A stretch of DNA of 64,000 nucleotides from Campylobacteraceae bacterium. Lineage in GTDB: Bacteria; Campylobacterota; Campylobacteria; Campylobacterales; Arcobacteraceae. Of this stretch, positions 5,722-10,442 are shown piece by piece (the stretch's first letter is position 1; every line of letters begins with the position of its first letter). Both the position numbers and the translations under genes were made by a program. The stretch is taken from assembly GCA_013373175.1 (NCBI GenBank), contig JABXII010000014.1, positions 1 to 64,000 on the forward strand. The letters are read 5' to 3'. The notes under the pieces were generated by a model, which was given only the letters and a program-made list of their open reading frames with translations, made no database searches and had not been told where the DNA came from.

Positions 5722-6210
5722 ATGAAGATAATCAGTAGTGTTTTTATACTATTTTTAACTCTATTTTTTTCAGGTTGTGCAGATAAAACCAGTGCATTAA
5801 ATCATTTTGAGAAAGATAAGTTAAGTGCAAAGGCAATTCAATATACAAAAAAACGTGATTTGATAAGCAATAACGAAATTGAGGCTTTAATTTTTGTTAC
5901 ATATTTAAATAATGTAGATGAAAAATATAAGAGTGATACTATTGAAACTTTTATTCTTGGGGTGCAAATTGCAAATAAAGATAAAGAGAACTTCTTTAAA
6001 GATTCATATAAACTTTTATTAAATGAAAAAGAATCAGTAAGTTTAAAAGGTTTAGATGCAGATTCTAAATTAGTGAATTCTATTCCATTAAAAAACCCAT
6101 GGGCTAGATATTATTTAGTAAAATTTAATAACAAAGAAGAGTTAAGAGAACTAAATTTAGAATTTATCCATAGTAAATATGGAACTACTACTTTAAGTTT
6201 TCAAAAATAG
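5722..6210 (+). CDS. Predicted lipoprotein of unknown function
   Basis: 162 residues from the ATG at 5722. An ATG at 5713 is in frame but sits on the ribosome site itself (AGGATG), while 5722 is 8 bases after AGGA, so 5722 is preferred. The N-terminus is a lipoprotein signal: Lys, a hydrophobic core, then a lipobox ending FFSGC with the acylated Cys at about residue 19. The mature part is soluble and lysine-rich with no domain I recognise. It is encoded opposite to its neighbours, and a lipoprotein gene occupies the same place between mobB and slt in Campylobacter as I remember it. It is probably an envelope protein; the function is unknown. Confidence 0.8.
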   Translation: MKIISSVFILFLTLFFSGCADKTSALNHFEKDKLSAKAIQYTKKRDLISNNEIEALIFVTYLNNVDEKYKSDTIETFILGVQIANKDKENFFKDSYKLLLNEKESVSLKGLDADSKLVNSIPLKNPWARYYLVKFNNKEELRELNLEFIHSKYGTTTLSFQK

Positions 6211-7594
6211 AAGATAAGCTTATCTTCTTTTTTCCTTTTTTTGTATTGTTGTTTATATAAAAATAGTAATTTAAAATAAATTCTTCCAGCTTTTTATCAG
6301 AGATAAATTCAAAAGCAAGGTTTTTATCTATATTATCATTTACTTTAAAACTCTTTCTTAATAACTCTAAATCATCATTTTTATTTTTTAAAGTCAAATA
6401 CTTTACAATAGGGTTTATACTTTTATCTTCTAAAAGTTCTTTATTTAGTAAAGAAATACTTTTTTCTAAAGCTAAACCACTTTTATAGAAGTTTTCTACA
6501 TCTTTAAGTTCATAGTTTTGATTTAACAGCCCTATATTAAACTCTTTTGAAATATGTTTATTATTAAAGTCTGAACTTACTTTAATCAATGAGTAAAGAA
6601 AAGCTTGAGTTTGTAATGATAATTTTTTTGTTTTTCTTATAAACTCTTTATTTTTTATTTGTGTAAATTTAAATGTTTTTTTATCTTCTAAAAGTTCACT
6701 TGCAAGAATTGTATATAAGTTTACTCTTTCATTGAAAATAATATCTTTTAAATAAGCTTCATTTTTTGTAGTTTTATATAACCAAAAAAGAATTTTATTT
6801 ATATTTTCATCATCTGCTTTATTTAAAGCATTTTGTAAATATGCAATTGTTTTATTTGAGTTATTAAGACTAAAGGCATTTAATCCCAATAAGAATGATG
6901 AGTTAGCATTTAACTGTGTATCATCAATAGATAAAAGAGAATCATTTACAATATCAAAGTTTCTATTAGTAATATTTTGTTTTAAATACTTTTCAAAGTT
7001 TATTTTGTCTTCATAAATTCTAAAAAATGTTTTTCTAGGTAGTTTATAGTTTAAATAGTTCTCTTTAAACTCAACTGGTAAATTAAAATATAACTCATAA
7101 AAAGAAGTACTATCTAAAGTAATAATTTTTGTAAAAGGTATAGCTGAAGATAAAACTTTTAGTTTTTTTGCAAAAAGAGGGTATTTATCTGCTGTTCTAT
7201 TTATCAATTGATTTAACTCTAAAGAGTTTAATTTTGAAGCTTCATTATAATCTAATCCCACCTTAATACAGTCATCATAAGAGTTAATTAACTGTTTTGT
7301 AGGCATATTCATACATTGAACTACTGCTAAAGTTTCATCATGTTTGTATTTTATTGCAAAGTTTGTAAATAGTTTAGTATTCATTGCATCAATATATTCA
7401 AGTGATTCATAAGCTTGTTTTTGGGTAGTTGAATCTTGCTTTAAAAGTTCATTTATAAAAAAATCTCTTCTAAGTCCTTTTTCTTCTTTTTTAATTATAT
7501 CAAGTGATAAAAACTCTTTTTTTTCTTCAATTTTTTCATTTGAAAAACCTAAAGTTGAAAATAAAGCTAAAAAAAGAAGAGAATAGGGCTTCAT
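6188..7594 (-). CDS. Slt-like periplasmic protein lacking the lytic transglycosylase catalytic domain
   Basis: 468 residues with an N-terminal signal peptide (about 1-18, ending FS-N). The N-terminal two thirds match the alpha-superhelical domain of Campylobacterota soluble lytic transglycosylases: a G-L-x-R-D-F segment near residue 40, a CIKVGL motif, and a SFLLGLNAF...LFWLYKTT...AYL...YTILASEL stretch (about 235-310). Gene order (lipoprotein, this gene, yggT, gltX) also fits slt. The catalytic domain that should follow, with its glutamate in an E-S-F type motif and the later G-x-M-Q motif, is absent. The last ~18 residues (Lys-rich KKGKKK, then SLSSIFENLK) are encoded by the opposite strand of the convergent gene's terminator and 3' end. 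It is likely non-catalytic. Confidence 0.6.
   Translation of the reverse strand: MKPYSLLFLALFSTLGFSNEKIEEKKEFLSLDIIKKEEKGLRRDFFINELLKQDSTTQKQAYESLEYIDAMNTKLFTNFAIKYKHDETLAVVQCMNMPTKQLINSYDDCIKVGLDYNEASKLNSLELNQLINRTADKYPLFAKKLKVLSSAIPFTKIITLDSTSFYELYFNLPVEFKENYLNYKLPRKTFFRIYEDKINFEKYLKQNITNRNFDIVNDSLLSIDDTQLNANSSFLLGLNAFSLNNSNKTIAYLQNALNKADDENINKILFWLYKTTKNEAYLKDIIFNERVNLYTILASELLEDKKTFKFTQIKNKEFIRKTKKLSLQTQAFLYSLIKVSSDFNNKHISKEFNIGLLNQNYELKDVENFYKSGLALEKSISLLNKELLEDKSINPIVKYLTLKNKNDDLELLRKSFKVNDNIDKNLAFEFISDKKLEEFILNYYFYINNNTKKGKKKISLSSIFENLK
6209..6236 (+). terminator. Rho-independent terminator of the lipoprotein gene
   Basis: Perfect 20-base palindrome AGAAGATAAG/CTTATCTTCT (6209-6228) followed by a run of T broken only by CC. 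It begins at the stop codon of the rightward lipoprotein gene. It lies wholly inside the coding sequence of the leftward Slt-like gene. Confidence 0.8.
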
Positions 7595-7595
7595 G

Positions 7596-7874
7596 TTACA
7601 TACTCATAAAAAGTCTACCCAAGAATGTTTCTAGGAAGATTAATGCAAAAATTAAAATAATTGGTGCAAAATCCATTCCCCCAAAAACTGTAGGAATAAA
7701 TCTTCTTACAAGATTATAAGCAGGTTCAGTTAATCTATATAACATTTGCACAATAGGATTATATGGATCAGGTCTTACCCATGAAAGTATTGCTGAAATA
7801 ATGATAACCCATTTATATAAAAAAATTATACTTAATATAACTGTAAAAAATGAGCTTAATAAGGCATCTGTCAT
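7596..7874 (-). CDS. YggT family membrane protein
   Basis: 92 residues with two hydrophobic segments (about 5-30 and 65-90) separated by the family hallmark: [13 protein letters not shown] followed by [14 protein letters not shown]. YggT proteins are small inner-membrane proteins linked in other bacteria to cell-division-site or osmotic functions; the biochemical role is not settled. The ATG overlaps the gltX stop (AATGA), and the Slt-like gene starts one base after its own stop, so the three genes form a tight operon. Confidence 0.88.
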
Positions 7875-9151
7875 TTTGTAATTTCTCCTAAATAGTTTTT
7901 AATTAGAGGATAAACTTCTTCAAGTTCAATTCCTTGTAGTTTTGTTTGTCCAGTAAGAACATAGGTTAATGGCTTTAAAAGTCTTTCTTCTTTTAATTGT
8001 GTTTTATCTGTAATAAATTGTTTAAATTCTGAAAAACTATCAATAAAAGGAGCGTCATTTACGGCTAGTTTCACTTCAACAAACTCTTCTTCAAAACCTT
8101 CACAAGTTGATTTTGGTGCAAATACTAAGTTTATTTTCTCTTTTATATCTTTTATTGTAGAAGTTTCATTTAAAAAAAGTTTCCCTAGTTTTCCAATATC
8201 ATCATCTGCAAATCCTAGAATCTTTGAAAACCTCATATTATCGATATTAATAAGATGTTTTTTATTTATCTCTTTTAGCTTTTCAATATCAAAGTTTACT
8301 GCTTCATTTGGAATATTTTTTATATCAAACCATTCTACAGCCTCTTCTAAAGTAAAAATCTCTTTTGGAGTTTCATTTCCAAGTAAAACTAAATAATTTG
8401 CAATAGCTGCTGGAAGAAAACCATCATCTATAAGTTTTTTTACAGAAGAGTATTTTGAGTCTATATTTACATCAGGGATATGTGTAAACTCAATTTCTTT
8501 ATCATAATTTAATAGTTTTCTAATATGAATCTGTTTTGCTGCATCATTTACTTTATCTTCTAAAGTAATAACAGCTGAAATATCAAATAACATATCATCA
8601 ACAGCATGGGCATAGTTGTGCGTTGGTGTTTTATCTTGTCTTAAAATAGGGAAAGAGTCGATATCTGAAGGCTTAAATGATAACTCACCTTTTAAAAGAT
8701 CTTTGAAAACTATATTTTCATCAGGTTTTTTTATTCTAACAATAAAAGGAGAATTTACATTTAAAACTGTTTCATCAGAAAGAGTTTGGCAAAAACCATC
8801 ATATTCATAAGGTTTATTATTTTTCTTTGCTTCTTCTTTTAGTTCCTCAATTTTTGCATCTGAACAAAAGCAGGCAAAGGCATTTTTTTGTCCCATAAGT
8901 TGCATTGTAAGTTTTTGGTGATATTTTAAATTATCATTTTGATGAAAAATACCTTCATAACCAATAGAAAAGAGATTTAAAAGCTCTAGAATCTCTTTAT
9001 CTTTTCCTTCAATATTTTTTTCTTTATCAGTATCTTCAATTCTTATTATAAGTTTTTCATTTAATTGTTTAGAAACAATATGATTAAATATTGCTACTCT
9101 TAAATCACCTATATCCATGTCTTTTGTTGGACTTTGTACAAATCTTAACAA
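7871..9151 (-). CDS. gltX: Glutamyl-tRNA synthetase paralogue without HIGH and KMSKS motifs
   Basis: 426 residues, TTG start with an AAGGAAG site in the end of the upstream gene. The fold is that of the second (GltX2-type) glutamyl-tRNA synthetase of this phylum: SPT at 7-9, RIEDTD at 37-42, [12 protein letters not shown], and [13 protein letters not shown]. But the HIGH-type motif reads DIG with Asp13 where His is required, with Lys10 replacing the preceding glycine. The conserved R-G-E-D-H motif reads T-L-E-D-K (196-200). The KMSKR loop is missing: residues run directly from PDVNIDSK to YSSVKKL (226-240). Each change hits ATP binding, so the protein probably cannot activate glutamate. The reading frame is otherwise intact, which suggests a retained non-canonical role or recent decay. 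Confidence 0.8.
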
Positions 9152-9152
9152 A

Positions 9153-10442
9153 TTACTTCCTTACTATTGAAAATGATAATTTTTTAATCTCGTCATGAGA
9201 TTTTATATATTTGTTTAAATCGTCTAATTTTAGACTTTGTATTCTATCTAACTCTTTTTGTGAGTAATCAAATCCTAAACCTCTATAAAAAAGAGTAAAA
9301 GCTCTATGTAACCTTTGTGATAGTGTTTCTGTTCTTAAAGGTTCACTTCCTAAGATGAAGTTTTTTGCAGAGTCTAGTTCTTCTTTTGTAACACCTTCAT
9401 TCACAAAATCATTTACTATTTTTGATACTAACTCTTTTGCCTCATCTGCACTTTCAAGTTTAGTTTGTAAATAACCTGTAAAGTAATTGTGAGATTTATT
9501 TATTGAAACATAACCATAAGCAGAATAAGCAAGACCTCTTTTAACTCTAATTTCTTCCATAAGTCTACTTCCAAAACCACTTCCACCTAAAATAAAAGAA
9601 GCTACTTTTGCTTTATAGTTATCTTCATTTTTTACAGTAGTATCAAAAGGACTTCCAAAGTAAATATAAGCTTGTTGAGTATCTTTTTTTAGTGTAATAG
9701 TCTCTGCTTTATCACTTGTTTTTACTATTTTAAACTTATTACTATTTGTAGCTTTAATATCTTTTAATAGTTTTTTTAATTTTGTTGAAAGTTCATCAAA
9801 TTCAATATCTCCACCTACAACAACAATTAAGTTATTTAAATCAATTGCATCAGTTAAAAACTTTTTAATATCAGCAAGTTTTATTTTTTCTATTGATTCA
9901 ATACTTCCACTTGCTGGTCTTTCTAGTGCAGTTCCTTTAAAAAGAATCTCTTTTAAATTTTTACTAGCAATATAGTCAAAATCATTCTCTTTTCTTTTTA
10001 ATGAACCAGTTTTAATAGTTTTTATTTTATCTAATACTTTTTTATCATAATTAGGGTCATTTAATAACTCTTTTAATAAAGATAATGCTTTTTCATTTAC
10101 ATCTTTTAGTGAAGAAAGTTCGATTACAAATGTTTCAAACCCAACAGAAGAGTGTAAAGAAATAGCAGAATCTTCTAACTTTTGAGCAAACTTAGTAGAA
10201 CCTAACTCTTTTGTTCCTTCATTTAGCAATTTTGCTGAAAGTGATGCTAAGCCACTTTTATTTTTATCTTGAATATACCCAGAGTTTTTAAATACAAGTT
10301 GTAAATTTAATATTGGTAAATTTTTATCTTGTTCAAAAACAACAGGAATTTCAATATCATTTATCTTTATTTGCTTAACAGTAGCAGACATTAAATATCC
10401 TTGAATTAGTAATAGTAGTAAAAAAGATTTAAAGAGGTTCAT
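9153..10442 (-). CDS. M16-family (insulinase-like) periplasmic protein without the HXXEH zinc motif
   Basis: 429 residues with a signal peptide (about 1-19). The sequence shows the two homologous halves of an M16 peptidase: the N-terminal [14 protein letters not shown] segment and the C-terminal [19 protein letters not shown] motif typical of M16C. In active members the first segment carries H-x-x-E-H; here the aligned residues 67-71 are Ser-Leu-Ser-Ala-Lys, so the metal ligands are missing. Inactive M16 chains usually work as the non-catalytic half of a heterodimer, but no partner gene is in the window. It lies 5 bases downstream of mqnC and 1 base upstream of the gltX paralogue. Confidence 0.82.

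Follow-up and report, generated by a model that had tools for sequence, protein, structure and literature searches.

The window, a 64,000-nucleotide stretch of an Arcobacteraceae genome (contig JABXII010000014.1), carries an open reading frame of 426 codons at 7871-9151 on the minus strand, as are all window features located below. Its TTG start codon follows AGGAAG, and its 3' end lies in an ATGA sequence (7871-7874) in which its stop overlaps the start of yggT (7596-7874), an arrangement that is nearly universal across the class. yggT is the conserved downstream neighbour, and a slt homologue (6188-7594) is the third gene of the conserved block. The gene is gltX2, orthologous to those encoding the glutamyl-tRNA synthetase GltX2 (GluRS2), at the ancestral gltX2-yggT-slt locus. 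Its product was 40-65% identical to intact GltX2 and ~30% identical to GltX1 of the same genomes, and the tree placed it with the GltX2 proteins of its own family. The three-gene locus was kept in families f1, f3, f10 and f11, and gltX2-yggT in f7 and f4.

The initial annotation had described an uninterrupted GltX2-type protein devoid of HIGH, RGEDH and KMSKR, and both the open frame and the altered letters were found. The HIGH motif, variable among relatives, is absent: residues 13-16 (9104-9115) read D-I-G-D instead of the H-I-G-N of intact GltX2. Residue 10 (9122-9124), a Gly in 38/38 aligned intact GltX2, is Lys, and the R-G-E-D-H motif is replaced by T-L-E-D-K at residues 196-200 (8552-8566). 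A deletion with its junction at residues 226-236 (8444-8476) has removed the KMSKR loop; intact GltX2 proteins from this family read ..NAQTGKKMSKRDD.. there, and the net loss is seven residues. A further change, which the annotation had not mentioned, lies in the C-terminal domain, where K387-G-K389..F392 of intact GltX2 is K-E-E..L (residues 387-389, 7985-7993). To judge by these substitutions, the protein probably lacks synthetase activity. It passes the NCBI glutamate--tRNA ligase equivalog model (300 bits, cut-off 290) and will therefore be annotated as an active enzyme. A sequencing artefact was ruled out, since all 16 members of the genus were in the same state: each had an open frame at the locus and had lost at least one motif, and the lost letters differed between species. 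A check proposed with the initial annotation, whether close relatives share the losses, thus came out positive.

The fold appears to have outlasted the motifs. An AlphaFold2 model of the window protein (92 orthologues; pLDDT 95.7, pTM 0.91) gave a full GluRS fold, which superposed on Thermus thermophilus GluRS (1j09) with Z 34.7 and rmsd 3.1 over 417 residues. The version from G192, among the most reduced (382 aa, zinc knuckle gone), was also well predicted (pLDDT 91.5). The window protein retains the zinc-site residues C94, C96 and C121 together with Y117 (8789-8872). Residues kept in degenerate proteins include, among others, C94, C96, C121, D185-D186-M187, G244, N252-Y253-L254, N296, H299 and Y414. 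R3, R18, the Rossmann fold and the zinc site are also kept; R196, Y178 and N179, which we take to be glutamate-pocket residues by analogy with the T. thermophilus enzyme, are not.

The neighbouring genes were inspected as well. The Slt homologue, two genes downstream, had no SLT domain match in the window; its catalytic Glu-Ser (RQES in intact relatives) is replaced by KVSSD, and it is ~90 aa shorter. Loss of Slt features is graded in the genus: G003 keeps the Glu-Ser pair and G013 still scores above the SLT cut-off. The genome has two further SLT-domain genes. On these letters the Slt homologue is a candidate for a second dead enzyme in one operon. The gene immediately upstream (9153-10442), almost abutting gltX2, encodes an M16 peptidase family protein. 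No HxxEH zinc motif was visible in it, and the M16 protein of a relative with intact GltX2 (L150) had the same two-domain Pfam pattern.

Gln-tRNA routes and the distribution of motif loss

Three class Ic synthetases are encoded in the genome (2.76 Mb, 38 contigs). Its GlnRS (755 aa, with a C-terminal YqeY domain) has intact PHIGH and VMSKR motifs, and its GltX1 (470 aa) has intact HIGG and KLSKR; gatB was found and no AsnRS scored above the cut-off. Because GlnRS is intact, Gln-tRNA can be made directly, independently of GltX2. Since gatB is present and AsnRS was not detected, Asn-tRNA presumably continues to require GatCAB. The prediction that tRNA-Gln must be charged another way if GltX2 is dead, and the accompanying proposal to look for a second gltX, glnS and gatCAB, thus led to GltX1, GlnRS and GatB. 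Genes for tRNA-Gln(UUG), tRNA-Glu(UUC) and tRNA-Asn are present; tRNA-Gln and tRNA-Asn both have U1-A72, whose retention in tRNA-Gln is uninformative. The gatB match (G000:C18:115165-116589) and its relatives contain an in-frame stop (TAG/TAA) in many f1 genomes, probably a profile overrun past the stop of the gene.

glnS was detected above the curated cut-off in 57/298 Campylobacteria genomes and in 16/16 members of the genus; the class sample and the genus members together gave 71 distinct glnS-plus genomes. GltX2 was present in 66 of these and was not found in G062, G255, G210, G111 and G120. In G255, gltX2 is cleanly deleted between glnS and yggT (L166, 4466-4497). Frames were open in 65/66 GltX2 genes. 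Two proteins, from G076 (one TAG) and G224, were truncated at the C-terminus with loss of the C-terminal domain, and they were left out when motif loss was called, by simple letter rules, on the remaining 64 full-length proteins. Motifs had been lost in 61/64, all three in 52 and some in nine; only G190, G234 and G300 were intact. By comparison, 78/78 sampled GltX2 proteins from glnS-minus genomes (38 + 40 sequences) were intact at HIGH, RGEDH and KMSKR, and all kept Lys389. Five genomes of a single genus (G031, G033, G065, G139 and G307; f2, g21; L247, L248, L250, L251 and L252) had neither GltX2 nor GlnRS above the cut-off and a single GluRS-like gene, which suggests that a non-discriminating GluRS arose in that genus.

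Motif loss occurred independently in six families. Degenerate GltX2 proteins shared a mean 49-61% identity with intact GltX2 from within the family, compared with 39-44% for the GltX2 of glnS-plus genomes from other families, and the GltX2 tree followed family taxonomy, degenerate proteins included. On this tree, which was built from degenerating GltX2 itself and in which the deep placement of long branches is unsure, glnS required 14 changes and catalytic loss 13. Among 10 well-supported contrasts, 8-9 independent pairs agreed and none opposed (phylogenetic sign test, median p=0.0039). Joint transfer, in one event, of glnS and a dead gltX2 was ruled out because degenerate copies group with the intact ones of their own family; the ancestral position of the locus also ruled out co-transfer. 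glnS adjoins gltX2 only in f10, f7 and f4: in f10 it lies immediately upstream in the same orientation, and in f7 and f4 the two genes diverge.

Changes at the anticodon motif recurred too. All intact proteins in the alignment carried Lys at position 389, and 77% of the degenerate ones had an acidic residue there. By parsimony, 11/13 first changes from Lys389 were to Glu, compared with ~0.30 predicted by codon frequencies (p about 7e-5, under a simple neutral expectation and for a position picked after seeing the data). The place of Lys389 within a conserved anticodon-domain motif suggests that it lies near the anticodon. Because the K389E charge reversal is repeated, binding of the tRNA-Gln anticodon by the window protein is unlikely. 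The initial annotation had offered tRNA binding, regulation or a chaperone activity as possible roles, and it is anticodon binding that is weakened here. In G190, K389E is already present with catalytic motifs intact, suggesting that GlnRS was gained before GltX2 was disarmed; this order bears on how a direct route replaces indirect tRNA charging.

Selection on the degenerate protein

Codon models gave omega of 0.061 for 22 degenerate proteins of the window's family versus 0.038 for 10 intact ones, 0.096 versus 0.045 in f7, and 0.143 for degenerate f10. dN/dS between the window gene and its two nearest relatives was 0.10-0.12; among its neighbours in the same clade it was 0.06 for yggT, 0.09-0.11 for the M16 gene and 0.24 for slt. 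Across 13 close degenerate pairs (from f1, f3, f4, f7 and f10, the two window pairs included), values were 0.10-0.33 with upper bounds all ≤0.52, and three intact close pairs gave 0.03-0.09. As dN/dS is far below 1 in both degenerate pairs and codon models, degenerate GltX2 is clearly under purifying selection, though relaxed. These values and the open frames in relatives ruled out a random pseudogene, and the window gene itself, in a clade with omega of 0.061, has no stop or frameshift. The dN/dS comparison proposed with the initial annotation, together with the sharing of the losses by relatives, therefore upheld its suggestion that the protein is kept for a non-synthetase function.

The relaxation was uneven along the protein. 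Catalytic and anticodon sites, which are under the tightest constraint in the intact enzyme, showed a rise in omega from 0.019-0.021 in intact to 0.131-0.188 in degenerate proteins, about seven- to nine-fold; at other positions it rose from 0.040-0.049 to 0.052-0.085 (1.3-1.7-fold). C-terminal helices outside the anticodon motif were nearly unchanged (0.060 to 0.064; 0.070 to 0.076). Short-segment omega agreed for residues 98-140 and 297-345, although segment-wise values are noisy (one segment did not converge, at 1.0) and only their broad pattern is used.

This pattern bears on whether gltX2 might be a slowly decaying gene whose protein is idle and whose frame is kept only through translational coupling to yggT and slt. 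In most genomes, whether the protein is intact or degenerate, the end of gltX2 and the beginning of yggT share 4 nt; the shortened forms in G076 and G224 and the deletion in G255 still leave an upstream frame ending near yggT; and slt, a member of this operon, has likewise degenerated in the genus. Coupling to yggT may indeed help to keep the frame open. However, frame-keeping alone predicts dN/dS of ~1, far from the 0.06-0.14 of the codon models and the 0.10-0.33 of close pairs. In the window's clade, gltX2 evolves at a dN/dS similar to that of its functional neighbours, and constraint was lost at specific sites, not everywhere. Since coupling leaves the constraint on amino acids unexplained, we regard it as an unlikely sole cause.

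A probably displaced synthetase with a proposed second role

We favour the view, to which we assign a probability of about 0.7, that GltX2 was displaced by an acquired GlnRS, disarmed, and kept as a pseudo-synthetase. Ancestrally, GltX2 would have charged tRNA-Gln with glutamate. Horizontal acquisition of a YqeY-fused GlnRS, for which the tree gives some ten well-supported independent contrasts, would have made this reaction redundant and probably harmful. GltX2 would then have been disarmed at its ATP site, KMSKR loop, glutamate pocket and anticodon motif, the last via the repeated Lys-to-Glu reversal. The disarmed protein would survive through a second, non-catalytic role already present in the active enzyme; that many lineages kept the protein independently suggests that this role is older than the losses. 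Whether GltX2 throughout the Campylobacterota, active Helicobacter and Campylobacter forms included, has a separately selected non-catalytic function seems to us an even bet. Such a role is not retained everywhere: the five glnS-plus genomes without gltX2 can dispense with it, although they have kept gatB. The loss of the C-terminal domain in G076 and G224 also speaks against the proposed reading, as does the mild relaxation of constraint beyond the active site.

The least certain step is the nature of this role. Our tentative guess, somewhat doubtful as it is, is that GltX2 may be a protein scaffold in the tRNA-amidation machinery, acting through protein-protein contacts. Its constrained helical half (~297-345) and its Zn/acceptor domain (~98-140) would make contact with GatCAB or with the YqeY domain of GlnRS, which resembles the GatB tail. 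The guess draws on the near universality of GatCAB, the absence of AsnRS, a GlnRS whose YqeY domain matches the GatB tail, and the constraint on the helical half. The presence of gatB does not by itself discriminate: it was found in 65/66 glnS-plus genomes with GltX2 (AsnRS in 0/66), and an attempt to tie GltX2 retention to the presence or absence of GatCAB failed, as genomes lacking gltX2 carry gatB too.

A tRNA chaperone or regulator that binds the acceptor stems of tRNA-Gln or tRNA-Asn without charging them would also be non-catalytic. Recognition of the U1-A72 acceptor pair, which both tRNAs carry here, has been reported for H. pylori GluRS2 (PMC9976931), and the Zn/acceptor segment as well as K324, K339, K347 and K418 are still constrained. 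This role nevertheless appears improbable: K387 and K389 repeatedly become acidic, F392 and R396 drift, and a dead enzyme holding tRNA-Gln would compete with GlnRS. Net charge has fallen by ~8-12 units in f1, f4, f7 and f11, but has risen in f3. Much further from plausible is an enzyme of another kind, whether a ligase with another site or a GluQ-RS-like modifier. Retention of the Rossmann fold, R3, R18 and the zinc site would suit it, but each of the three ATP/adenylate motifs is either lost or variable, the extent of the KMSKR loop deletion differs between close relatives, and the predicted glutamate pocket is not kept.

The closest known systems match the window protein only in part. It belongs to the same orthologous family and fold as intact GltX2, but lacks HIGH, RGEDH, KMSKR and the KGK anticodon motif, and its host has GlnRS. 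The best-known precedent for a synthetase-fold protein kept in bacteria without synthetase activity is HisZ, a HisRS paralogue that lacks adenylation activity and serves as regulatory subunit of HisG (PMC9437257); HisZ, however, is a paralogue with a known partner, whereas GltX2 is an orthologue disarmed separately in many lineages after GlnRS arrival. Thermotoga maritima GluRS2, likewise a second GluRS copy reported to be inactive in tRNA charging, is of the gene-duplicate type, has a canonical H-phi-GG motif and is not linked to GlnRS acquisition (PMC3927822). GluQ-RS (YadB), likewise a GluRS derivative with a different role, corresponds to the N-terminal part of the window model, but it is catalytic and has no anticodon domain; in the window protein the domain is retained and the catalytic motifs are missing.

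Coexistence of GlnRS and GluRS2 in epsilonproteobacteria was noted in 2014, when GlnRS was proposed to be possibly non-functional there (PMC3927822; its two lists of GlnRS-carrying species contradict each other). That proposal is contradicted by our data, which point the other way. Our searches of the open-licence literature turned up no previous description of motif loss in GltX2, and no second paper on the coexistence. Repeated parallel loss of motifs with retention of the protein, each time with GlnRS, constitutes a natural experiment that splits catalysis from other roles. Automatic annotation labels such proteins, probably catalytically dead, as glutamate--tRNA ligases. If our reading is true, GlnRS acquisition would have repeatedly split two functions of GltX2, leaving a dedicated pseudo-synthetase in many genomes and pointing to an unrecognised function of GltX2.
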